A DNA stretch of 24,368 nt from a virus. The stretch's first letter is position 1. Every line of letters begins with the position of its first letter. Location of the stretch: positions 1 to 24,368 of the IMG/VR virus record IMGVR_UViG_3300028423_000044; one strand, written 5' to 3'. Below, piece by piece: positions 4,742-24,368 of the stretch. A program made the translations under genes and the position numbers. The notes under the pieces are model-generated. The model saw nothing but the letters and a program-made list of their open reading frames with translations. It ran no database searches and had not been told where the DNA came from.

Positions 4742-7585
4742 ATGGTTTTCAATCCTAACCTTGATGCAGCCCCTACACCGGAATCTCCGGTATACACAAA
4801 TGTATCAGCTCAGGCCGCTGGTGGTATGGGTGACGTTGCCGCTAATGCTTTAGGTGTACTCGGTGGCCTGATTACAGGTGGTGTTGAACGTCGTGAGGCA
4901 CGTCAGGCCAGAGAGCTTCGGCAGAACTACATCAATGGACTTGAGGGTATTAGGTCTAGAGTAAATGAAGGAGACATTAACGGTGCCTCCATCGCGGCAG
5001 GAAACCTTATCTCTTCCTACGTAGCTGCAGGTGGGGAGTGGGACACTGAGGCACGGGCTGTAGCTACGGCTGTCACCGGCCTGCCGGAACGTATGTTTGG
5101 TGTTAGCCAGACTGCTCTGGCCGCAGAGGATGAGAGACAACGTAGGTCTGCACTGAGAGCAGATGAGACCTTTCAAGCCTACCTTTTCCTTGAGGAACAG
5201 GCCAATCCCAATGCGTCTGAGGCTGAGCTATTCAACGCTGCGGAACAGCGAATCAACCGCCGTAATGCCAATGAAGTGATACTAGCTGAAGCTGAGATCT
5301 CGGGCCAAATGAACTACGAGGCTGAGGGCCGTGAGGCTGTCTTCGGTGTTATCGATGATTTCTATCAGGCTGCTCTCGGTTCTCTGGTCAACTCTATCGA
5401 GAGTGGTGAGGTTGTCGATCCGAGAGCAGTAGACAGCGCACGTATTCAGTTTAACGCACTGCGTCGTAGAGTTGAAGCTAGTCTTTACAATGTCTCTGAA
5501 GACCAGAGAGCAGAGGTTGAGCGTCAGTTCGAGCAGGTTGAAAACACTATCAACAATGTTGAAACTCTGCTGTCTTCTGAGGGTCAGCTTGAAAGAGCAA
5601 GGTCTTTCATGTCCCAACTTATTGTCGCAGGAAATCTTAGCGAAGACTCAAATCCTGTGCAAGCTCTTGGGGCTTTTCTTGCTTTGGAAGATATGGAAGG
5701 GTTTTTTCTTGCGGCTACTCAGTCAGGGCCTAGTCTGGCGAATAACCCTGAACTTGTCCGAAACCTTATGGAAGGTTATTCACTCAGTTTTACCGACTTT
5801 GTCCGTCAACAAGCAGCTGAGCAACTACCTGAACTGGAGGACGGAACGAGGAATCCTAACGGAATTATCTCCTCCGAAGAACTTCCTGTTGCGGTAAGAG
5901 AGCAGATAGCTACTCTGAACGACAGGAATATCACCAGTGAACTTAGCCTAAATGGACGGTTGTTCTCCACTGTCAATGCTCAGAACGTAACAAATCCTGC
6001 TACGGCTGACATGTTTATCAGGAGAGCCTACGAGACGGGTGCCTACATGCTCTCGACTGAAGGCCGTCCTCTCACTCCTGCCCTTGTTCAGCAGTTGGGT
6101 CTGGGGCCGCAGTTGGGTGAGAACTTTAACGTACTCGAAAGTGTTGGCCTTGACAGCGAGGGTGAGGTTCAGGCCCGTGTGACCCTACGTTCCGGTATCC
6201 TAACACAGATCTCTGCCCAACAGAGATATCTCAACCGTATCGAACAGGTCAACGATTTCGTCGGTCTTCGTTGGAATGAACAGACGAGTAGTTACGAAGT
6301 CACTGATCCTGAATTTATAGAGGGTTGGGCACGTTTATCAGGAGTTTCTGTCGCAGCTATGACGGGGGATAACGGTGCGATTTCTTTGCCTTCCGATCCA
6401 TCTCTTTATAGAGAGGGTTGGCGTTTGCAACTATGGCAGAGGGTCAATAATATTGACGAACTCTATAGCTACCGTGAGTCCATCAACAGTCTTCAGGGTG
6501 CCTTCGATTCACTGGAAACAGAGGTGCCTGAGGATCAAGGAGCTATTCCTGTAGCCTCTGACTTTGTCTTCACGTCTCAGACCCGTGCCCAACTGCCCCC
6601 GACTGAGGGTATGCTGAACATCTCGATGGACTTCAACGCCTCTCCTTCCGGCAACGCACGAGGCACTGAGGTTATCATTCCTGACAATGCCTCGCCAGAA
6701 GTACGGGCAGCGGCAGAAGAGTTTAACAGGCTTGTTGCCGACTTCGCTGCACGTAACGGTATCGAGGACTATCCTGTTAGGGGTGTCAGAACCAGATCTG
6801 AGAACGGCAGAGGCATCCGCAATACGGTCCATGCTGAACCCTTCTTCAACACTGACACCGCTATGCAGGAGGCTATCAGGGCAAATCCTGCTGAGTTTGC
6901 TGCGATCTATGCTCAGGCCTTTGGCAGCCTTTCCGGTGCCCGTGTGATTGCACCTCACGGCGAAGGCAATGACAGGGGTGCCACCTCTGAGATCTTTGGT
7001 GATGAGACATCCTTCGGTGAGTTGATGGCTCAGTCCTTTACCGGAGACGTGGGTGACATTGGTGCCACTGCTCCGAGAGGAAGGAGACGACCTGCTGGTC
7101 AGACCCCTCGTCCTGCTGGAGGAGGAATGGGACTACAGGGACCGATTGAGGACATGCTGCCTCCGCCTGCTCCGGCTCCTCAGGCGCAGACAGAACCTAT
7201 GGGTCTGGACATCGGCATGACTGCCTCCGCTATGGAGGAGGATGGGACTCCTGCCGTAGACATGTCTGCAGGTGACGCTCAGCCTACGGAAGGTAGAGAG
7301 GCACCGGAACGTCCTTCTGAGCCTGTACCGGATGCACCGCCTCCTGCACAGATTGCTCGTAACCTTGAAGAGATTGCTCGCGGTGCCCAAGAGAACTTCG
7401 GTGAGGACAATACTGTAGCCGGTAGGGCTATGGCGCTTGCACAGCGTATCTCCGGTGGCGAGGAAGTAGACTACTCGGAAGTCTACGCCCTCCTGACAGA
7501 GGCCCTGAGGCTCCCTGCTACGGCTGAGAAGCGTCGTCTGGTCAACGATCTCTACGATCTTGCTGAACAGATGAGAGGGCAGTGA
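4742..7585 (+). CDS. Internal virion protein with possible wall-degrading domain (947 aa)
   Basis: ATG at 4742 follows a good ribosome site (AAGGAAATACG) 9 nt after the previous stop. A Gly-rich hydrophobic segment sits near residues 28-45. Residues ~50-600 are Glu/Arg/Ala-rich and helical, as in rod-like core or ejection proteins. Residues ~650-760 form a distinct domain with a conserved-looking core: an RGVRTRSENGRG stretch followed by TVHAEPFFN (about 680-703), then ARVIAPHGEGNDRGA (about 733-748). The His/Glu and His/Asp residues there suggest a metallo- or glycosyl-hydrolase, and I recall similar segments in T7-like phages labelled as muramidase-like, but this is from memory. A Pro-rich linker (about 780-880) and a short helical C-terminus follow. 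It may combine core structure with local peptidoglycan opening during entry. Confidence 0.7.
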   Translation: MVFNPNLDAAPTPESPVYTNVSAQAAGGMGDVAANALGVLGGLITGGVERREARQARELRQNYINGLEGIRSRVNEGDINGASIAAGNLISSYVAAGGEWDTEARAVATAVTGLPERMFGVSQTALAAEDERQRRSALRADETFQAYLFLEEQANPNASEAELFNAAEQRINRRNANEVILAEAEISGQMNYEAEGREAVFGVIDDFYQAALGSLVNSIESGEVVDPRAVDSARIQFNALRRRVEASLYNVSEDQRAEVERQFEQVENTINNVETLLSSEGQLERARSFMSQLIVAGNLSEDSNPVQALGAFLALEDMEGFFLAATQSGPSLANNPELVRNLMEGYSLSFTDFVRQQAAEQLPELEDGTRNPNGIISSEELPVAVREQIATLNDRNITSELSLNGRLFSTVNAQNVTNPATADMFIRRAYETGAYMLSTEGRPLTPALVQQLGLGPQLGENFNVLESVGLDSEGEVQARVTLRSGILTQISAQQRYLNRIEQVNDFVGLRWNEQTSSYEVTDPEFIEGWARLSGVSVAAMTGDNGAISLPSDPSLYREGWRLQLWQRVNNIDELYSYRESINSLQGAFDSLETEVPEDQGAIPVASDFVFTSQTRAQLPPTEGMLNISMDFNASPSGNARGTEVIIPDNASPEVRAAAEEFNRLVADFAARNGIEDYPVRGVRTRSENGRGIRNTVHAEPFFNTDTAMQEAIRANPAEFAAIYAQAFGSLSGARVIAPHGEGNDRGATSEIFGDETSFGELMAQSFTGDVGDIGATAPRGRRRPAGQTPRPAGGGMGLQGPIEDMLPPPAPAPQAQTEPMGLDIGMTASAMEEDGTPAVDMSAGDAQPTEGREAPERPSEPVPDAPPPAQIARNLEEIARGAQENFGEDNTVAGRAMALAQRISGGEEVDYSEVYALLTEALRLPATAEKRRLVNDLYDLAEQMRGQ

Positions 7586-7815
7586 TGTGGACGCTTGTTG
7601 GCTCTCGGATAAGGAACCTTGCGGCTGGTGTCTTGGCTGCTGCAGTGTTCGTCATCGGTCTGATCCAGTACGGAAAGCAGACACAGAAGCACAAGGAAGC
7701 GGTACAGGACTTAGAGGACTACAAGGAAACGAGGGAGAGGATCGATGAGGCTGAGCCTTCTACTGATAGGGACTCTGCTCTTGAGCGGTTGCGTGACAAC
7801 AACCAACTCCGCTGA
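7585..7815 (+). CDS. Rz-like inner-membrane spanin (i-spanin)
   Basis: ATG at 7585 overlaps the previous TGA by one base (TGATG); an upstream in-frame GTG at 7582 is less likely. The 76-aa product has one N-terminal membrane segment (about residues 11-29, LAAGVLAAAVFVIGLIQYG) followed by a highly charged helical tail rich in Lys, Glu, Asp and Arg. This is the N-in/C-out layout of a short i-spanin. The decisive support is the lipoprotein gene starting inside its 3' end in the +1 frame (7745), the classical Rz/Rz1 overlap. Spanins fuse inner and outer membranes in the last step of lysis of Gram-negative hosts. Neither a holin nor a free endolysin is recognisable next to it. Confidence 0.7.
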   Translation: MWTLVGSRIRNLAAGVLAAAVFVIGLIQYGKQTQKHKEAVQDLEDYKETRERIDEAEPSTDRDSALERLRDNNQLR

Positions 7816-7924
7816 GGCCATCTGCTCCATCCCTCTGCCTACAGTATCTGCAGAGGATACTGACCAGACACTCATCGAAGTAGACCTGTTCTCAGAGCGA
7901 TTCAGGAGGGCCTGTAATGGCTAA
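7745..7924 (+). CDS. Rz1-like outer-membrane spanin lipoprotein (o-spanin)
   Basis: This 59-aa ORF starts at ATG 7745 inside the Rz-like gene, one frame over, and ends at TAA 7922-7924, 8 nt into the next gene. It opens with MRLSLLLIGTLLLSGC, a textbook lipoprotein signal with lipobox L-S-G-C and the lipidated cysteine at residue 16. The mature part is about 44 residues (VTTTNSAEAICSIPLP onwards) with two more cysteines and only two prolines, fewer than in lambda Rz1. The +1 overlap with a one-membrane-segment partner is the hallmark of two-component spanins. The start has no strong ribosome site, so translation is probably coupled to the upstream gene. Confidence 0.75.
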   Translation: MRLSLLLIGTLLLSGCVTTTNSAEAICSIPLPTVSAEDTDQTLIEVDLFSERFRRACNG

Positions 7925-8168
7925 GAGACTAGACAAGTCCAAGATGAAATGCAACAAGCCGAGAACTACACCGGACCACCCTACTAAGTCCCATGTAGTC
8001 AAGGCCTGTGAGGACGGTAAAGAGAAGATCATTCGCTTCGGTCAACAGGGAGTGAAGGGTAGCCCTAAGGGTTCAGCGCGTAACAAGGCCTTCAGGGCCA
8101 GACATGCAAAGAACATCAAGAAGGGCAAGATGAGCGCGGCCTACTGGGCCGCAAAAGTGAAATGGTGA
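7917..8168 (+). CDS. Small basic conserved phage protein (83 aa)
   Basis: ATG at 7917 has a strong ribosome site (AGGAGG, 8 nt upstream) and overlaps the spanin lipoprotein gene by 8 nt. The product is very Lys/Arg-rich and contains VVKACEDGKEKIIRFGQQG in the middle and a C-terminal KKGKMSAAYWAAKVKW. I remember this pattern as a widespread family in marine podoviruses and cyanophages, with no assigned function. The C-terminal ARHAKNIKKGKMSAAYW block is its most constant part. High charge suggests nucleic-acid binding, which is inference. It is the first of six consecutive genes for tiny basic proteins before the operon terminator. Confidence 0.75.
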   Translation: MAKRLDKSKMKCNKPRTTPDHPTKSHVVKACEDGKEKIIRFGQQGVKGSPKGSARNKAFRARHAKNIKKGKMSAAYWAAKVKW

Positions 8169-8178
8169 GGAGATAACC

Positions 8179-8250
8179 ATGCCTTATTCAAGAGGAACTG
8201 TGAAGCCTTACGGCAACACGACTAAGAAGAAGGGCGGAAAGGGCAAGTAA
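8179..8250 (+). CDS. Tiny basic peptide (23 aa)
   Basis: ATG at 8179 is preceded by GAGGAGATAACC, a strong and well-spaced ribosome site. The peptide begins MPYSRGTVKPYGNTT and ends in KKKGGKGK. Its TAA overlaps the next ATG by one base (TAATG), so it sits precisely in the coupled gene chain. I recognise no family. The strong ribosome site and exact packing are the reasons to call it a gene in spite of its length. Confidence 0.6.
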   Translation: MPYSRGTVKPYGNTTKKKGGKGK

Positions 8251-8384
8251 TGCCCGTCCGTAGAGTCAAGGGTGGCTACCAGTGGGGTACGTCAGGTAAA
8301 GTGTACCCCACTAGAGAACAAGCAGAGCGTCAGGGCAGAGCTATCTATGCCTCTGGCTACAAGAAGAAAGGATCTAAGAAATGA
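8250..8384 (+). CDS. Small conserved basic phage protein (44 aa)
   Basis: ATG at 8250 shares its A with the preceding TAA; AAAGGG lies a short way upstream. The 44-aa product contains GGYQWGTSGKVYPTREQAER followed by QGRAIYASGYKKKG. From memory this short pattern recurs as a free-standing small protein in many tailed phages; no function is known to me. The aromatic/glycine core followed by an amphipathic helix and a Lys-rich tail suggests a small folded domain. Its TGA overlaps the next ATG by four bases (ATGA). Confidence 0.75.
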   Translation: MPVRRVKGGYQWGTSGKVYPTREQAERQGRAIYASGYKKKGSKK

Positions 8385-8575
8385 AGAGAAACAAAGGGCC
8401 TCAGTACGCGAATGGTCGGACGATGGCCCCTCAGATGCGGCCTTCTCGTGGTCCGTCCTCGTCTCCGAGACCGACCCCTCGCCCGTCCACGATGGCAGAA
8501 CGTCAGGCTGGTCGCAGAGGCAACCGTAGTGCCGCGATGACTGCACGTCAGGATGAAATCCTTAGGAGACGCTAA
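8381..8575 (+). CDS. Arg/Pro/Ser-rich small protein (64 aa)
   Basis: ATG at 8381 overlaps the previous stop by four bases; AAGAAAGGATC upstream can serve as a ribosome site. The product is low-complexity and probably disordered: Arg, Pro and Ser dominate residues ~15-40 (SRGPSSSPRPTPRPSTMAER), then a short basic helix ending in ILRRR. No family is recognised. Its place in a chain of overlapping genes for basic proteins is the main evidence that it is translated. Confidence 0.6.
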   Translation: MKRNKGPQYANGRTMAPQMRPSRGPSSSPRPTPRPSTMAERQAGRRGNRSAAMTARQDEILRRR

Positions 8576-8751
8576 TGGCTGACCGTCCTAAGCCTACGAA
8601 ACCCGCTCTCTGGTCGCGTGTAATCAACGAGGCTAAGCGCAAGTTTGACGTGTACCCTTCTGCCTACGCTAACGCATGGGCCTCCAAGGAGTACAAGAGA
8701 CGTGGAGGGGGCTGGCGAGGGCCAGACAATAGGGTCAGACGCAATGGCTAG
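8575..8751 (+). CDS. Small conserved basic phage protein, YPSAYANAWASK type (58 aa)
   Basis: ATG at 8575 overlaps the previous TAA by one base and has AGGAGACGCTA upstream, a strong ribosome site. The 58 residues contain LWSRVINEAKRKFDVYPSAY followed by ANAWASKEYKRRGGGW. I recall this motif in many phages and prophages as a short uncharacterised domain. The predicted form is one helix, a Tyr/Trp-rich loop and a basic C-terminus. The function is unknown. The end overlaps the next gene by 8 nt. Confidence 0.75.
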   Translation: MADRPKPTKPALWSRVINEAKRKFDVYPSAYANAWASKEYKRRGGGWRGPDNRVRRNG

Positions 8752-8977
8752 GGGCGGTTTAGGTAAGTGGTTCGCAGAGGAGTGGGTAGATGTCAAGACT
8801 GGTAAGCCATGCGGTAGGTCCGGTAAGAAGGACAAGCGTAAGTACCCTGCCTGTCGCCCCAAAAAGGTCGCGGAAAAGATGACCGCCGCTGAAAAGAGGG
8901 CGATGGCTAAAAAGAAGACAGGCCGTGAAAGAAAAGAATGGCCTGTCACAGCATCGGGTAAAAGAAGGGGCCGCTAA
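8744..8977 (+). CDS. Basic conserved phage protein, GLGKWFAEEW type (77 aa)
   Basis: I start it at ATG 8744, not at the longer in-frame 8645, because the longer form would lie almost wholly inside the preceding gene and MARGGLGKWFAEEWVDV is the typical N-terminus of this family as I remember it. A two-cysteine segment (KPCGRSGKKDKRKYPACRPK) could be a metal or structural site. The C-terminal half is Lys/Arg-rich (EKRAMAKKKTGRERKEW). The function is unknown. It is the last gene of the rightward operon, ending inside the foot of the terminator hairpin. Confidence 0.75.
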   Translation: MARGGLGKWFAEEWVDVKTGKPCGRSGKKDKRKYPACRPKKVAEKMTAAEKRAMAKKKTGRERKEWPVTASGKRRGR

Positions 8978-8988
8978 CGCGGCCCTTT
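8968..8988. terminator. Bidirectional intrinsic terminator between convergent operons
   Basis: A perfect 7-bp GC stem, GGGCCGC (8968-8974) / GCGGCCC (8979-8985), with loop TAAC. On the + strand it is followed by TTTCCTATT; on the - strand by CCTTCTTTTAC. It sits exactly where the late (+) and replication (-) operons meet. The U tracts are imperfect, so termination efficiency is uncertain. Confidence 0.75.
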
Positions 8989-8989
8989 C

Positions 8990-9202
8990 CTATTCCAGAC
9001 TTGCAGATTCATCCAAGAATTCTGTCTCTACACAGGCTAGTCCTGCTACATAAATATCTGGTCTTGACTCAGCAAAGTAAACAGCCGAAGACAGGCTTTC
9101 CATGCAGGACAGTTCAGTGGGTTCTACATTCCCTACAACAGCACGACACTGTGTTGGCTCAGCCATGAGGCAGATTAGAGCTACTGGTGCGAATACCATC
9201 AT
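8990..9202 (-). CDS. Small protein with signal-like N-terminus (70 aa)
   Basis: The ATG at 9202 overlaps the stop of the upstream gene, with GGAGAAAG just before it; the longer frame to 9241 would only extend into that gene. The N-terminus MMVFAPVALICLMAEPTQC is hydrophobic and could be a signal peptide or a short membrane segment. Cysteines fall at residues 11, 19, 33 and 57. No family is recognised. It is the last gene of the leftward operon, ending right at the shared terminator. Export is inference. Confidence 0.5.
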   Translation of the reverse strand: MMVFAPVALICLMAEPTQCRAVVGNVEPTELSCMESLSSAVYFAESRPDIYVAGLACVETEFLDESASLE

Positions 9203-9417
9203 TCTTTCTCCACGATTGAGATGAGTTGGTCGTGATACCACCGAGCCTTCTTGAGATCTTCGAGACCATTCTTGTATCGCCAGCGGTGCATGTACTTGGC
9301 AATGTTACCCCGTAGGTAGCCAATGTACTCCTCCTCTGTGAGGAAGTCCTTGATGTAGTCAATACACTCGATACTTCCCTGACCGTAGTGGGCAGGATGG
9401 TTGACGTTGTCTGTCAT
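9199..9417 (-). CDS. DUF3310 family protein (T7 gp1.7-related domain)
   Basis: I start at ATG 9417 (MTDNVNHPAHYG), which has GGAGAAGAT directly upstream and overlaps the phoH stop by 4 nt (ATGA); the longer frame to 9447 lies inside phoH. The 72 residues show the DUF3310 pattern: NHPAHYGQGSIECIDYI, then GYLRGNIAKYMHRWRYKNG and LEDLKKARWYHDQLI. In T7 this domain occurs in gp1.7, a nucleotide kinase, but free-standing small copies in other phages have no proven activity. Context among nucleotide-metabolism genes fits a role in dNTP supply. Confidence 0.85.
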   Translation of the reverse strand: MTDNVNHPAHYGQGSIECIDYIKDFLTEEEYIGYLRGNIAKYMHRWRYKNGLEDLKKARWYHDQLISIVEKE

Positions 9418-10605: not shown

Positions 10606-10682
<77 letters not shown>

Positions 10683-15329: not shown

Positions 15330-17199
15330 ACCAATTCTTGCCGATATCTGTGGAACCTGCAAGCGGACACATCAGTCCTAAGTCCTTGCCTGCCCACTCG
15401 ATAGCGTCACGCTGTATCTCACCCAACCGTTCTGCTGCGTCTCTCGATCCGATCACCTCTGTCTGCCACTCGTCGTGCGGCCACGTGACCAGCTTGAAGT
15501 TGATCTTCTCCTTCTCTGCGTCTGTGATCCACTTTAGGCAGGCATGTTTCATTATGGTGGACTCACCATTCTGCAACATACCAGCCAGTGTCTTGTGTTC
15601 AGATGGTACAATAACCTTGCGGCCATCATAACCCCTGAAATAACCCCTCTCTGCGATCTGCGGGATGATCTTCGTCTTGAGTTTCTTGAGACCGCTAATG
15701 CTCTCCATGAAGTTGAACACTGCACCGGAAGCCTGCTGACTAGAGACCCGTAGGATCTGGCCGATCTTGGCGTTGCCTGCACCCAACAGAAAGGCGTAGA
15801 TGAAAGTCTTGGCATCATCACGAATGATGTGGTCGAGACCTAAGGCCTTCCTGTTGAGGTTGTGGATGTCTGTCTCATCCTCCTTCTTACCGCTGATGAT
15901 AGCGTGTACGTACTCCTCTGACTGCATCAGGTCGGCCAGTACCCGAAGCTGGATACCCTCTGCGTCTGTGCCTACAAGCCAGTTACCCTCTTCCACTGTC
16001 CAGAGGGCACGGAAGGGTCCGTCATACTTAGCCTTCACCTCCTCCACTGCAGTCTTAGCGTCACCGTGAAAGGCTGCAGGTATGTTGGCCTGATTGGGTG
16101 CAGCATGTGACAGTCTGCCTGTCCACGCACCAATGTGATTGAAGCGTCCATGAATGCGACCATCAGGGGCTACACAACCCAACCACTCCACAAGACTAGA
16201 CCGCCGACCATCGAGAGTCAGCCACTCTGCCAGAGCCTTAGCGCCGGAGGGTGCAGTAGGCGGGAGAGTGTTGAGGTTGTTCTCGCTGCAGGTCCATCCG
16301 TAGAAGGCGTAGTGCTTAGCCTTGTCAGGGTCAGTGCCATCCCGCTCGAAGGCGATGTGGCCCTTAGTCTTCTCGTAGGGTTTCCAGCCCGCCTCCCACA
16401 GACGCTCGATGCGCTGCTTAGGAGAGGAGGCAGAGAACTCTACATAGTCATAGCAGACCAGATCATCCCCATCCTTGTGGGTCTGAGGGTATTTCTCAAG
16501 GGCGTCAGTCACTGACTTGTAGAGAGAACCGTCAGCCTTAACACGGTACTTGATACGCTTGACCTCCTTGAGGACAGGCGGGAAGTCGATCTGGAACTGA
16601 TCCTGAAGCAGGTCCATCCGGTCAAGGATTTCGACAAGCATCTTCTCCGCAGTATCTGCGTCGAATGCAAAGCCGTTTCTCCGCATCTGTTCGCACACGA
16701 TCTGGATGTCATGCTCACAGCGCAGGGCCTTAGCCCACTGCTTGTCCATGATGACAGGCTTGAACCGCTCGAAGAGCTTGAGGGTTACGGCCACATCATT
16801 GACGCAGTAGTCCTCCATTTCCTGAGTGAGGCCACCAGCAAAGTCCTTGAAGTCACCCTTGTGTAGACCCAACCGCCTACCCCACGCATCGAGAGAGTGG
16901 CCTCCTAAGACATCGTAGTTGACCAGTCGGCTGATGATCAGTGTGTCGATCACGTCCTTCTCTTCGATGGTGTGGCCCAACAGTCTGTTGATAACCGGAA
17001 CATCGAAGCCGATCCCGTTGTGAAATACGAACTTGTTGTACTGGTGACAGTAGTGCTTGAAGCGAAGAGCCTCAGCAGGATCGGAGGTTAGGTTGCGGAA
17101 GATCTCGACAGCCTTAGTCTTCACGTCCTGACACACGATGATCCAGATGTGCTTGGCATCGAGGTCGTCTGTTTCAATGTCAACTGCTGTGATCTTCAT
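15316..17199 (-). CDS. Family A (T7-like) DNA polymerase with 3'-5' exonuclease
   Basis: I start at ATG 17199 (MKITAVDIETD) with AGGAGAG just upstream; the frame extends to a TTG at 17214. The 627-aa protein has exonuclease motifs Exo I DIETD (D7, E9), Exo II FHNGIGFDVPVINRL and Exo III DYCVNDVAVTLKLF. The polymerase motifs are A LVGTDAEGIQLRVLADLM (about 405-422), B RDDAKTFIYAFLLGAG (about 458-473) and C PHDEW (about 573-577). It ends KNWFDTH like T7 polymerase but is about 75 residues shorter than T7 gp5. At the position of E. coli Phe762 it has Tyr, as in T7, while the usual Tyr766 is Leu. The HNH gene upstream overlaps its start by 20 nt. Confidence 0.95.
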   Translation of the reverse strand: MKITAVDIETDDLDAKHIWIIVCQDVKTKAVEIFRNLTSDPAEALRFKHYCHQYNKFVFHNGIGFDVPVINRLLGHTIEEKDVIDTLIISRLVNYDVLGGHSLDAWGRRLGLHKGDFKDFAGGLTQEMEDYCVNDVAVTLKLFERFKPVIMDKQWAKALRCEHDIQIVCEQMRRNGFAFDADTAEKMLVEILDRMDLLQDQFQIDFPPVLKEVKRIKYRVKADGSLYKSVTDALEKYPQTHKDGDDLVCYDYVEFSASSPKQRIERLWEAGWKPYEKTKGHIAFERDGTDPDKAKHYAFYGWTCSENNLNTLPPTAPSGAKALAEWLTLDGRRSSLVEWLGCVAPDGRIHGRFNHIGAWTGRLSHAAPNQANIPAAFHGDAKTAVEEVKAKYDGPFRALWTVEEGNWLVGTDAEGIQLRVLADLMQSEEYVHAIISGKKEDETDIHNLNRKALGLDHIIRDDAKTFIYAFLLGAGNAKIGQILRVSSQQASGAVFNFMESISGLKKLKTKIIPQIAERGYFRGYDGRKVIVPSEHKTLAGMLQNGESTIMKHACLKWITDAEKEKINFKLVTWPHDEWQTEVIGSRDAAERLGEIQRDAIEWAGKDLGLMCPLAGSTDIGKNWFDTH

Positions 17200-17779
17200 A
17201 CTCTCTCCTCGCAATCCTAAGACTATCCCGTATAGTCTTCTTTGTTATCTTACATACACTAGCATGTTTAGATAAGTTTTCTTCTGCTGTTAAGATTTGC
17301 AAGTTACCTGACCAGTGTGGTCCACCATCTGACAAAGGCCACATGTGATCTACATGGTGTTCGATACCAGTTGCTATAGACAGGACTTCACGTAATTTGT
17401 ACACGTCTCGTATCCTTTGTCTCTCTACGACACAGTTACGGAGAAATCTAGGAACAGCCTTAAGTTTAATTGATCTTCTTCGTGCCTCCCACTCAGCATA
17501 TTTTTCTTTATTAGCCTGTCTGTAGTTTTTACGGTACTTAGCATACTTATCTTTATTAGCTTCGTAGTATTCTTTCCGAAAGGCAGGGTCGTACGGTTTT
17601 AGCTTATCTTTATTAGCTTCGTACCAAAGTTTATTGACCTGTCTAATCTTTTCTCTATTAGCTTCGTTGTAAGTTTTCATACAAGCCTTACACTGGTTAT
17701 GATACCCATCCTTCCTAGACCTGTTACGCCTGAACTTCTCGTAGGGCTTGGTCTCTTCACATGTAGAACATTTCTTCAT
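17180..17779 (-). CDS. HNH homing endonuclease (insert between helicase and polymerase)
   Basis: The 199-aa protein starts with a treble-clef metal site (C4-x2-C7 and C30-x2-C33), then four copies of an AN(K/R)(E/D)K motif at 39-44, 54-59, 73-78 and 88-93. The C-terminal HNH domain is HHVDHMWPLSDGG, with D144 H145, then N159 in WSGNLQILTAEENLSKH, ending with H172. Free-standing phage homing endonucleases look like this; they cut uninserted alleles and spread by repair. Base use is clearly more AT-rich than its neighbours, a sign of separate origin. Its 3' end encodes the ribosome site and start of the DNA polymerase gene in another frame. ATG at 17779 has AGGTAAGCT upstream. Confidence 0.9.
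   Translation of the reverse strand: MKKCSTCEETKPYEKFRRNRSRKDGYHNQCKACMKTYNEANREKIRQVNKLWYEANKDKLKPYDPAFRKEYYEANKDKYAKYRKNYRQANKEKYAEWEARRRSIKLKAVPRFLRNCVVERQRIRDVYKLREVLSIATGIEHHVDHMWPLSDGGPHWSGNLQILTAEENLSKHASVCKITKKTIRDSLRIARREYEDHSS
17546..17623 (-). repeat. 21-bp exact direct repeat inside the HNH gene
   Basis: Two identical 21-bp copies at 17546-17566 and 17603-17623 (core TCTTTATTAGCTTCGTA on the + strand), 57 bp or 19 codons apart, encode two of the YEANKDK units. Partly matching copies lie on either side. The near-perfect identity indicates a recent internal duplication. Confidence 0.8.
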
Positions 17780-19417: not shown

Positions 19418-20091
19418 CAGTTCTCCATCAGTGCAGACCAGCTAACAGGGAACAGGTCTCCCATCACATTGCTGATCTGGTCGGCCACCAGACGGCTCTC
19501 GTACTGAGTGTCAGTGGCACAGCGTAGTTTACACATTGCAGCGAAGGCGTCAAGGCTACCGCTCCACCACCATTCAGTCATGGTGCTTTGAGGCAGGACC
19601 ATTCGGGCTTGCTCAGGTGCCACACCCTCGTCAAGAAGTTGGTTGTATAGTCCAAGAGCCTTGTTGTTGTAGTACAACAGACCCGCATTACTCTCAACAA
19701 CACCGTCAGATCCTTGCTTCTTGTCAGCACTACGTCCACGCCAAACATCAGGCACGTAGAACTCAGGCTCATTGTCTACATAGCGACGACTGATCTCGTT
19801 CCAGCGCAAAAACTTATGCTTAACCAACTGTCGAGCCACGAAGATCGGGGCCTTAACGTGGTAGGATGCAAAGGCATGACCGAAGGGTGACAAGTGCTTG
19901 TGCTTGGCGAGATACTTGATCAACTTGGTGTCTTTGTCTGACAGAACCATCTCAAGGTATTCACCTTGTTCGTCTTGTTTTACTGCACCTTCCACAAGTT
20001 CACTCTTCTTACCGAAGCTAACACGGGCTGCATTTACAGTTGTTAAGTCCGATCCACAATGATCAATGTAAGTCACTTCTATTTTTGACAT
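19417..20091 (-). CDS. thyX: Flavin-dependent thymidylate synthase ThyX
   Basis: The 224-aa product makes dTMP from dUMP with FAD and methylene-tetrahydrofolate. The ThyX signature RHRx7S appears as KHKFLRWNEIS (K91 H92 K93 to S101), continuing SRRYVD. Flanking family blocks are SPFGHAFASYHVKAPIFVARQ (67-87 region) and the C-terminal VLPQSTMTEWWWSGSLDAF, with LRCATDTQYE near the end. Both arginines of the RHR motif are lysines, which I have seen in other phage ThyX, so activity is still likely. An HNH gene overlaps its start by 29 nt. It is placed between that endonuclease and the primase-helicase and supplies thymidylate for replication. Confidence 0.93.
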   Translation of the reverse strand: MSKIEVTYIDHCGSDLTTVNAARVSFGKKSELVEGAVKQDEQGEYLEMVLSDKDTKLIKYLAKHKHLSPFGHAFASYHVKAPIFVARQLVKHKFLRWNEISRRYVDNEPEFYVPDVWRGRSADKKQGSDGVVESNAGLLYYNNKALGLYNQLLDEGVAPEQARMVLPQSTMTEWWWSGSLDAFAAMCKLRCATDTQYESRLVADQISNVMGDLFPVSWSALMEN

Positions 20092-20527
20092 CTTTCATCC
20101 ACTCCAGTAGATTTTCCAGTACTTCTATACTAGTGTTGTTTTTTATTCGGTTAGCTTTTCTAGATAGCCAATGGACATTACCTTCTACGTACCCTAGCTC
20201 TGGTATGAATCTATCTAACTCAGCCGCATGTTCATCTGATCTATCAGTTACAAGGTTAAGATCGACACGAAGGATAGGGCAAACGCCAGTCCAAATACTC
20301 TCAAGGTAGTCTGGTGTAAGATCGAAAGGCACACCCAAATGTTTAGCTCTGCTTTTTGCCCTTGTACATCTATGTAAGAAAGGGTTGTTATTCCTATGTG
20401 ATTTGTATCTTGCTTTTTGGATTTCGTTAGCACATGTTTTGCAGTAAGGTCTAAGCCTTCCAGACCTGTCATTCCTCACGGGAAACTCTGATTCATCTTT
20501 ATCTGTGTTACAACTGTTACATAGCAT
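20063..20527 (-). CDS. HNH / Endo VII-like homing endonuclease (insert before thyX)
   Basis: The 154-aa protein begins with a C-x2-C...C-x2-C metal site (MLCNSCNTDKDESEF and YCKTCANE), followed by a basic linker and an HNH-like core, DEHAAELDRF then GYVEGNVHWLSRKANRIKNN, typical of small phage endonucleases of the HNH/Endo VII fold. The first catalytic His is less plain than in the other HNH protein. The gene is AT-rich and overlaps the thyX start by 29 nt. ATG at 20527 has AGAGGAG upstream and a sigma70 promoter about 30 nt before it, which probably also drives thyX and primase-helicase. Confidence 0.8.
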   Translation of the reverse strand: MLCNSCNTDKDESEFPVRNDRSGRLRPYCKTCANEIQKARYKSHRNNNPFLHRCTRAKSRAKHLGVPFDLTPDYLESIWTGVCPILRVDLNLVTDRSDEHAAELDRFIPELGYVEGNVHWLSRKANRIKNNTSIEVLENLLEWMKDVKNRSDLH

Positions 20528-24027: not shown

Positions 24028-24070
24028 GTTCCTGATTCGTTCCTGTAGTCTGCGTGGTGGGTATAGGAAC
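24028..24070. repeat. GTTCCTG direct repeats with an inverted partner
   Basis: GTTCCTG occurs at 24028-24034 and 24039-24045, 11 bp apart (one helical turn), and AGGAAC, the inverse of GTTCCT, lies at 24065-24070. The spacing suggests protein-binding sites, iteron- or operator-like. Confidence 0.45.
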
Positions 24071-24082
24071 GCGCCCGCGTGT

Positions 24083-24104
24083 GTATGCGCGTCACGTATG
24101 CGCG
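24083..24104. repeat. GTATGCGCG direct repeats
   Basis: GTATGCGCG at 24083-24091 and 24096-24104, 13 bp start to start, within an alternating purine-pyrimidine GC block. GTATGCGC also occurs at 23581-23588 in the inverted repeat at the other end of the intergenic region. Confidence 0.45.
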
Positions 24105-24155
24105 CGAGGGGATAGGTAAGTTATGCTGACGTAATAATGTAACGTTATCAAATGG

Positions 24156-24368
24156 GTGAGAAAGGAATTTCCAGATGTTTACCTCATCGCGGGGAATTTT
24201 ACTGGTAGTGAGTGCGCGAATTGGCTAAAAAACATGGGTGTTGACTGCGCTAAAAGTGGGGTAGGAAAATCAAAATTATGTTTGACTCGACAATATACGG
24301 GTTTCGGCTCTAGTATTGAGCATTTTATTGAAGAGTGTGATAATTCCTCTATTGACCTGATGTTTGAT
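24156..24368 (+). CDS. Unknown AT-rich ORF, N-terminal part
   Basis: The frame opens after TAA at 24135 and stays open to the window end, giving at least 71 codons from GTG 24156; the first ATG in frame is codon 29. The N-terminus reads MRKEFPDVYLIAGNFTGSEC, then ANWLKNMGVDCAKSG and GFGSSIEHFIEECD, a plausible small alpha/beta protein, but I recognise no family. Only a weak ribosome site is visible. The coding sequence is clearly more AT-rich than the rest of the window and faces away from the leftward operon. It could be an early phage gene, an acquired gene or flanking non-phage DNA. Confidence 0.5.
   Translation, partial: MRKEFPDVYLIAGNFTGSECANWLKNMGVDCAKSGVGKSKLCLTRQYTGFGSSIEHFIEECDNSSIDLMFD

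Follow-up and report, generated by a model that had tools for sequence, protein, structure and literature searches.

The 24,368-base virus record IMGVR_UViG_3300028423_000044 (hereafter the window), which covers part of a genome, carries a chain of six small open reading frames (ORFs) for very basic proteins, ORF1 to ORF6. We somewhat favor the interpretation that three of them, ORF1, ORF5 and ORF6, encode free-standing proteins of the head interior that are packed with the DNA. We call the phage cobavirus-like because its layout agrees with that of SIO1, CRP-5, ICBM2 and similar Zobellviridae/Cobavirinae roseophages. Much of the evidence comes from relatives of the three proteins in other phages, and the loci in which these relatives were found are numbered below with an L.

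Comparison with the PHROG profiles revealed that ORF1 is, by its sequence, a member of phrog_7595, a family without an assigned function. Residues 3-83 of ORF1 matched positions 8-96 of the 96 in the profile (E 1.8e-30), and no difference from the family was seen. An AlphaFold2 model of ORF1, based on an alignment of 99 rows from 132 non-redundant candidates, reached a predicted local distance difference test score (pLDDT) of 92.2 and a predicted template modeling score (pTM) of 0.81. When this model was used to search BFVD, the matches included ICP1 ORF125 (probability 1.00, TMq 0.67, E 0.012) and a protein named 'XkdF' (probability 1.00, TMq 0.68, E 0.019), in addition to six other matches at E <=0.001. 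ORF5 and ORF6 each match a different half of a single Pfam family, DUF5872 (PF19197): ORF5 aligned with profile positions 1-38 at 23.5 bits, under the cut-off of 27.5, and ORF6 with positions 54-106 at 32.2 bits, over it. Whereas the Pfam family unites both halves in one chain, they are two separate overlapping genes in the window. A one-chain form was found in S-CRES1 (weak, E 0.046) and, with the halves reversed, in L250, L251 and L263 (Pfam run on L250 and L251). In PHROG, ORF5 matched phrog_27331 (E 9.6e-9), ORF6 phrog_23735 (E 4.2e-8) and ORF3 phrog_31267 (E 9.1e-13); ORF2 and ORF4 had no usable match there, with none below E 0.05 for ORF4.

Fusions of these domains in other phages lend indirect support to a place in the head interior. 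In a search of that single protein, the ORF1 domain was located at residues 191-261 of ICP1 ORF125 (42.7 bits), so that the domain standing alone in the window is, in ICP1, part of a 278-amino-acid (aa) fusion near its C-terminus. We take ORF125 to be the Gp125 of published work, because the coat (122) and decoration (123) proteins share their numbering with the ICP1 record; Gp125 is described as a predicted procapsid-maturation protease encoded in the capsid operon (PMC9040626, PMC7567579). The ORF1 domain was also C-terminal in cytidylyltransferase-like ORFs of L338, L339 and L353, which were so called from Pfam CTP_transf_like for L338 and L353 and from the start of the ORF for L339; ORF1 itself differs from them in having no enzyme domain. 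The N-terminal part of the L338 ORF was 44.7% identical to S-BM3 T4-GC_190 over 67% of the query (E 5e-61), and T4-GC190 is reported to have been found by mass spectrometry in purified S-SM1 virions (PMC3037559). A Pfam search of four further carriers of the ORF1 domain (L284, L327, L347 and L342) returned no family. Among the matches listed, ORF6 and ORF5 were fused in that order, as full-length matches, at 57 of 80 loci (L361-L417). One of these loci, L380, encodes in a single 601-aa ORF a Peptidase_S78 match, DUF6321, ORF6 and ORF5, followed by an acidic-looking tail, and in L251 the ORF6 and ORF5 domains precede a stretch matching a protein of phage DSL-LC01 that bears the annotation 'capsid maturation protease'. 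L252 (1191-2864) joins the ORF6-ORF5 unit with a nucleotidyltransferase domain, whose PF01909 match of 21.0 bits is right at the cut-off, and may encode an enzyme packed in the head. DUF6321, a domain of cyanophage proteins, shares a chain with the ORF5 and ORF6 domains in L417 as well as in L380; in T4-GC119 of the cyanomyovirus S-BM3 (L022:3515-4528, just after gp16), it is combined with the ORF5 domain and a stretch weakly resembling ORF6. The six window ORFs had no match to DUF6321 in Pfam, nor to Peptidase_S78/XkdF up to E 1.

The N-termini of some relatives provided a second line of evidence. About ten N-terminal residues of the T4 internal proteins are described as sufficient for head entry, positions 4 and 7 weighing most for targeting and 8 and 10 for processing, with cleavage after L/I-X-E (PMC9026906). 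The loci L278-L357 were recruited by a divergent ORF1 domain, and we take many of them to be T4-like because HTVC008M and C48C1, which belong to Kyanoviridae, are among the named phages with a relative of that domain; other phages are represented there too. We scored the N-termini of unique, domain-bearing ORFs of at least 80 aa, and the control consisted of 1119 ORFs, each 150 aa or longer, taken from other phage loci. A strict targeting-like pattern was present in 16/40 N-termini of L278-L357 and in 5/1119 controls (shuffles: mean 0.8, maximum 4 of 40), and a looser pattern in 17/40 and 37/1119, respectively. A position-exact pattern was also applied that follows the published T4 positions: F/Y at 4 and 7, L/I/V/M at 8, and E at 10. 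It fitted 8/40 N-termini against 1/1119 controls when any Met in the first 60 residues was accepted as the start, and 6/40 against 0/1119 when only the first Met was used. The strict and the position-exact patterns were both composed after some of these N-termini had been viewed, and it is the contrast with the controls that counts and not the raw number. In addition, the ORF1 domain was immediately preceded by [LIV]xE in 31 of the 41 unique cases; shuffles gave 17.2 on average and 25 at most.

The six ORFs are set apart by charge and, with one exception, by strong constraint. Their isoelectric points are 10.5-12.0 and their net charges +17 to +30 per 100 aa, and the 17 other measured proteins of the window range from -7.0 to +10.6. 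A basic, lysine-rich nature is a defining trait of the T4 internal proteins, and the window ORFs fit it. The ratio of nonsynonymous to synonymous substitution rates (dN/dS) was estimated against L103, the nearest relative that keeps the same gene order. It was 0.13 for ORF1 and 0.05 for each of ORF3, ORF5 and ORF6; ORF2 keeps 22 of its 23 residues, giving a value of 0.04 that comes from only 7 substitutions. These five are protein genes by the mark of purifying selection on their sequences. ORF4 is probably a real but fast-changing gene: it has the start MK[RK]NKGPQYAN in common with its L103 counterpart, but the two share just 23 of 60 aligned residues, with a dN/dS of 0.42. Among relatives, the median dN/dS was 0.05 for ORF1 (333 pairs), 0.14 for ORF5 (1156) and 0.06 for ORF6 (854), the pairs being non-independent and drawn from the first 150 matches per ORF. 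A preliminary description of this DNA had named a dN/dS near 1 as a finding that would speak against these genes, and all but ORF4 lie well away from that value. The same description is borne out in reporting six small ORFs chained by overlaps of 1-8 nucleotides (nt) or short gaps, all very basic, three of them below 60 codons (ORF2, ORF3 and ORF5). Their position after lysis genes is correct with respect to the Rz/Rz1-like pair (7582-7924), which matches spanins weakly. That ORF5 and ORF6 belong to one Pfam family had gone unnoticed in that description.

We searched phage and cellular genomes for the same genes. By tblastn, ORF1 was found in 48 of 50,697 phage records, the matches coming from roseophages, cyanophages, a Puniceispirillum phage, a Pelagibacter phage and a Vibrio phage. 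The SIO1 record AF189021 contains a homologue at 24065-24310 (L001:4001-4246), where no gene is annotated. Species genomes of bacteria and archaea were also scanned, by a search that picks up close relatives only; it gave 25 loci and no sign of ORF1 as a cellular gene family: 24 are titled as metagenome-assembled genomes, and the remaining one is an isolate, AG-426-I04, by its name probably a single-cell genome. For gene order, we used the best 80 of about 600 loci per scan, excluding copies of the window itself; these loci were not drawn at random, and near-identical contigs are still among them. ORF5 preceded ORF6 in 75 of the 76 ORF6-seeded loci with enough upstream DNA, and ORF6 followed ORF5 or lay within the same ORF in 66/67 ORF5-seeded loci, so that the two are, on this gene order, a near-obligate pair. 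ORF6 overlapped ORF5 by 1-20 nt in 108/152 cases, taking the nearest possible start codon. ORF1 was upstream in 48/60 ORF6-seeded loci, and among 72 ORF1-seeded loci ORF5 was nearby in only 7 and ORF6 in 10. Among 183 sequences, ORF2 occurred in the window and L103 only and ORF4 in the window only, its L103 counterpart having been identified by position. Over a larger set, ORF3 has relatives in five further loci (L103, L023, L077, L418 and L420). The proposal that the six genes travel together is thus upheld for the ORF5-ORF6 pair and in part for ORF1, and fails for the rare ORF2-4. Other cobaviruses have small ORFs at this place with net charges of -2, +15 and +13 in CRP-5 and +21 in ICBM2. 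Because these small ORFs are different ones and mostly basic, the spot after ORF1 in cobaviruses seems to gather basic genes. Such small ORFs, unrelated-looking and mostly very basic, follow ORF1 at L002:4246-4711 and L013:4380-4661.

The neighborhoods of these genes in named phages are varied. In KBS-S-2A, MED4-184 and S-H1, they belong to head modules and immediately precede genes for scaffold or coat; in CRP-3 and CRP-207, they lie ahead of terminase genes; and in P-SCSP2, ORF5/6 stand between the scaffold and major capsid genes. They are close to lysis genes in S-EIVl, HTVC106P, S-CRES1 and CRP-810. In HTVC008M, the ORF1 gene directly follows a cytidyltransferase gene amid hypothetical and metabolic genes.

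From these data, the following scenario can be drawn. In other phages, the same small basic domains would enter the forming head within prohead protease, scaffold-like and internal head proteins; where the phage has a protease, they would be brought in by fusion or by a targeting sequence and perhaps released by cleavage. In the cobavirus-like phage, ORF1, ORF5 and ORF6 would be made late, would reach the prohead by binding DNA or core proteins and would remain with the packed genome, with which they may be ejected. Their Lys/Arg side chains would probably offset the charge of the DNA phosphates, the simplest use of such charge because lysines of T4 internal proteins are described as contacting phosphates (PMC3012670). 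ORF5 and ORF6 would work as a pair, and ORF2-4 probably represent basic proteins of that same type with an accessory part. The data show the genes themselves, selection acting on them, the ORF5-ORF6 pairing, and the fusions and targeting-like N-termini of relatives; for this phage, we infer late expression, presence in the virion, DNA binding, charge offset and the entry route alike. The structural proteins listed in the cobavirus paper are scaffold, coat and portal, with no protease named among them. As to the virion or packaging role put forward in the preliminary description, it gains indirect support for ORF1, ORF5 and ORF6 from the fusions, the virion-detected family and the T4-type N-termini; its idea of DNA condensation would have charge as its sole basis.

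Several observations weigh against placing these proteins in the head. With regard to the fusions, ICP1 Gp125 is itself a predicted protease, the Peptidase_S78 match of L380 is marginal (20.8 bits against a cut-off of 21), and the mass spectrometry of S-SM1 bears on the cytidylyltransferase family and not on the ORF1 domain itself. T4-GC119 of S-BM3 has no targeting N-terminus and is assigned in published work to a possible mobile cassette, zwf/gnd, that includes metabolic genes (PMC3037559). The targeting motif marks the neighborhood as well as the domains, since other ORFs of L278-L357 are also enriched (42/242 for the pattern and 30/242 for its position-exact form), as an internal-protein locus in this region would lead one to expect. 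In L023-L277, the pattern fits only 2 of the 180 unique domain-bearing N-termini, and by eye none of the six window ORFs has a capsid-targeting N-terminus of the L/I-X-E type. On these two grounds, the free-standing forms appear to have no targeting route, and they would therefore need another way in, if they enter the head at all. Head context is not clear in HTVC008M, HMO-2011 or Vibrio phage D274; cobavirus ORF1 adjoins spanins and not head genes; and no ORF5/6 was detected beside ORF1 in the 8.2 kb of SIO1 examined. A literature search found no virion proteomics of a cobavirus.

Three other explanations were considered. The same fusions to predicted prohead protease and scaffold-like proteins, and the closeness of the genes, in several phages, to those for scaffold, coat or terminase, could mean that the proteins are assembly factors inside the prohead, such as partners of scaffold, protease or portal, that are absent from the mature virion. 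We consider this unlikely, though deserving of attention, because the strong positive charge suits DNA contact better and because mature virions are reported to contain the cytidylyltransferase family, in which some members have the ORF1 domain at their end. The proteins might instead be ejected with the DNA and affect the host, for instance by countering restriction or another defense, in the manner of T4 IPI. The T4 internal proteins share the targeting route, and IPI is reported to inhibit a restriction enzyme (PMC3012670, PMC9026906); the L252 relative fused to a nucleotidyltransferase domain would also agree with such a role. However, the T4 internal proteins are described as highly diverse (PMC3012670), whereas ORF1, ORF5 and ORF6 evolve slowly, which argues against a part in an arms race, and ORF1 is found in phages of very different hosts. 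We regard this explanation as quite unlikely; it suits the fast-evolving ORF4 better, which is left open to such a role.

It is also conceivable that the genes encode late proteins outside the virion, acting for instance in binding of the host nucleoid or ribosome or in the timing of lysis. Their place beside Rz/Rz1 in the window and near lysozyme/peptidase genes in S-EIVl, HTVC106P, S-CRES1, CRP-810 and CRP-207 would fit this explanation. Nevertheless, in other lineages ORF1 is part of a head module, directly in front of the genes for scaffold or coat, and a lysis role leaves the prohead-protease fusions and targeting sequences unexplained, so that we judge it very unlikely.

Internal head proteins are already known as a kind. 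T4 IPI, IPII and IPIII are described as packed with the DNA, their lysines touching it (PMC3012670), and the relatives of ORF1, ORF5 and ORF6 in L278-L357 have N-termini of the same register. Taking the T4 side from published descriptions, the window proteins differ in having no targeting sequence and in being conserved instead of diverse. We did not find the free-standing, targeting-free form or the split DUF5872 pair described in the literature; DUF5872 was met only as a name in a gene table, no paper on DUF6321 was found, and no work on head-interior proteins of cyanophages or pelagiphages was found to treat these families. The head-interior reading thus proposes a role for three phage families of unassigned function, one of whose members is unannotated in the SIO1 record. 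If it is true, small phages with basic proteins that have no T4-type targeting sequence load their heads by another route. A wider possibility, which we advance tentatively and think rather doubtful, is that ORF1, the DUF5872 halves, DUF6321 and perhaps ORF3 form a mobile kit of head-interior domains. This kit would be common to several kinds of tailed phages and reach giant eukaryote viruses, be swapped between protease-fused, targeting-sequence-borne and free-standing forms, and serve as a general viral set for packing DNA, with the ORF5 motif YPSAYAN so constrained that an intein settled in it. Its links to giant viruses are DUF5872, which is also named in Chrysochromulina viruses, and an ORF1-like predicted fold in Tunisvirus.

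Two homologues of ORF5 contain in-frame inserts of 254 aa at KFDVYP^SAYAN, located at L175:7127-7888 (identical to L275:4001-4762) and L277:4001-4762; an identical partial copy is present in L174 and L276. The L175/L275 and L277 inserts are 63% identical and occupy the same site in two phages. Both begin with Cys1, contain CTPDH/CTPGH (TxxH, block B) and end in VTGN followed by Ser; compared with the consensus of intein blocks, their penultimate residue is Gly and not the usual His. A profile of the inserts had only two matches in the PDB up to E 10, the NrdJ-1 and gp41-1 inteins (E 0.1 and 0.56). Pfam Hint was matched by the L277 insert only (E 0.087), and NCBIfam gave no match up to E 10. 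Judging from these sequence features, the inserts are probably inteins of one allele. In our judgment, such an intein, if it splices, would occupy an unusually short host protein (~60 aa), and no report of an intein in this host protein was found among the first papers listed by a literature search.

The ORF6-ORF5 profile was built from natural fusions (47 of the 57 loci L361-L417, plus L252); two alignments that mixed rows for ORF5 with separate rows for ORF6 were dropped, as the ORF6 ends aligned onto ORF5. In a fused relative, the ORF5-homologous part was modeled as two helices, and the fused ORF6-ORF5 model, with a pTM of 0.48, gives no conclusion on how the halves pack. A PDB sequence search gave no match up to E 1 for the ORF1 profile and a single one, a designed protein at E 0.58, for the fused profile; with S-BM3 T4-GC119, only ribosomal S10 matches were returned (E 0.3-0.68), which we judged to be chance. 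The PDB fold search with ORF1 gave nothing convincing (best E 2.6), and the best VIA-align Z scores, 2.4 for ORF1 and 2.7 for ORF6-ORF5, are below the usable level and do not imply a novel fold. None of the six ORFs matched NCBIfam up to E 0.1. That ORF3 shares its ancestry with the N-terminal parts of the fused ORFs (KPGYKWGDSGKCY) is unproven, the domain E values being 0.03 and worse. In BFVD, Tunisvirus V9SE36 is the predicted-fold relative of ORF1 (E 0.0038, probability 1.00). The ORF6-ORF5 model retrieved the DUF5872 protein A0A0N9R0V8 of Chrysochromulina ericina virus (E 0.61, probability 0.99) and A0A6M2ZIM9 of Synechococcus phage S-SCSM1, named 'virion protein' (E 0.0021, probability 0.97).

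Features of the window from the spanin candidates to the end of the six-gene chain
Feature	Position	Strand	Remarks
Rz-like i-spanin candidate, 77 aa	7582..7815	+	upstream neighbor; weak match to phrog_1026, Rz-like spanin (E 0.021); Rz1-like ORF nested
Rz1-like lipoprotein, o-spanin candidate, 59 aa	7745..7924	+	weak match to phrog_1275, Rz-like spanin (E 0.0062); dN/dS 0.22 against L103
ORF1, 83 aa	7917..8168	+	net +22.9 per 100 aa; phrog_7595 domain: beta hairpin, then helices
ORF2, 23 aa	8179..8250	+	net +30.4 per 100 aa; Lys/Gly-rich tail; retained in L103
ORF3, 44 aa	8250..8384	+	family phrog_31267
ORF4, 64 aa	8381..8575	+	Arg/Pro/Ser-rich; rapidly evolving; ORF at same place in L103
ORF5, 58 aa	8575..8751	+	KFDVYPSAYANAW motif; matches N-terminal part of DUF5872
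ORF6, 77 aa	8744..8977	+	motif WF..EW..CGR....YPACRP; two Cys; matches C-terminal part of DUF5872
GC-rich hairpin across ORF6 stop codon	8968..8985		7 GC pairs; loop of 4 holding the ORF6 stop; T-rich tail on - strand; possible terminator

The six ORFs, all on the plus strand, are placed between the Rz/Rz1-like pair and a hairpin. The top PHROG match of the Rz-like candidate is phrog_12535, of unassigned function (E 0.00026). The Rz1-like ORF begins within the Rz-like ORF, extends beyond its end and overlaps ORF1 by 8 nt. A gap of 10 nt separates ORF1 from ORF2, and the following overlaps are 1 nt (ORF2/3), 4 nt (ORF3/4), 1 nt (ORF4/5) and 8 nt (ORF5/6). Purine-rich stretches before the starts, judged by eye, are clear for ORF1, ORF2 and ORF5 and weaker for ORF3, ORF4 and ORF6. 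A promoter scan of 7400-9300 found no sigma-70-type site, and the six ORFs are presumably expressed late. The hairpin may be a terminator between convergent operons: one such hairpin was found against 1.1 in shuffles, that is, no excess, and the annotation of Lentibacter phage ICBM2 has a bidirectional terminator at the equivalent position. The late genes of the plus strand are followed by convergent DUF3310 and PhoH genes, and the minus strand carries, by eye, genes for ribonucleotide reductase, polymerase and primase-helicase. Two minus-strand ORFs (17180-17779 and 20063-20527) with Cys pairs and HNH-like endings are presumably HNH endonucleases, and a tRNA-Arg (tct) is encoded on the minus strand at 10606-10682.

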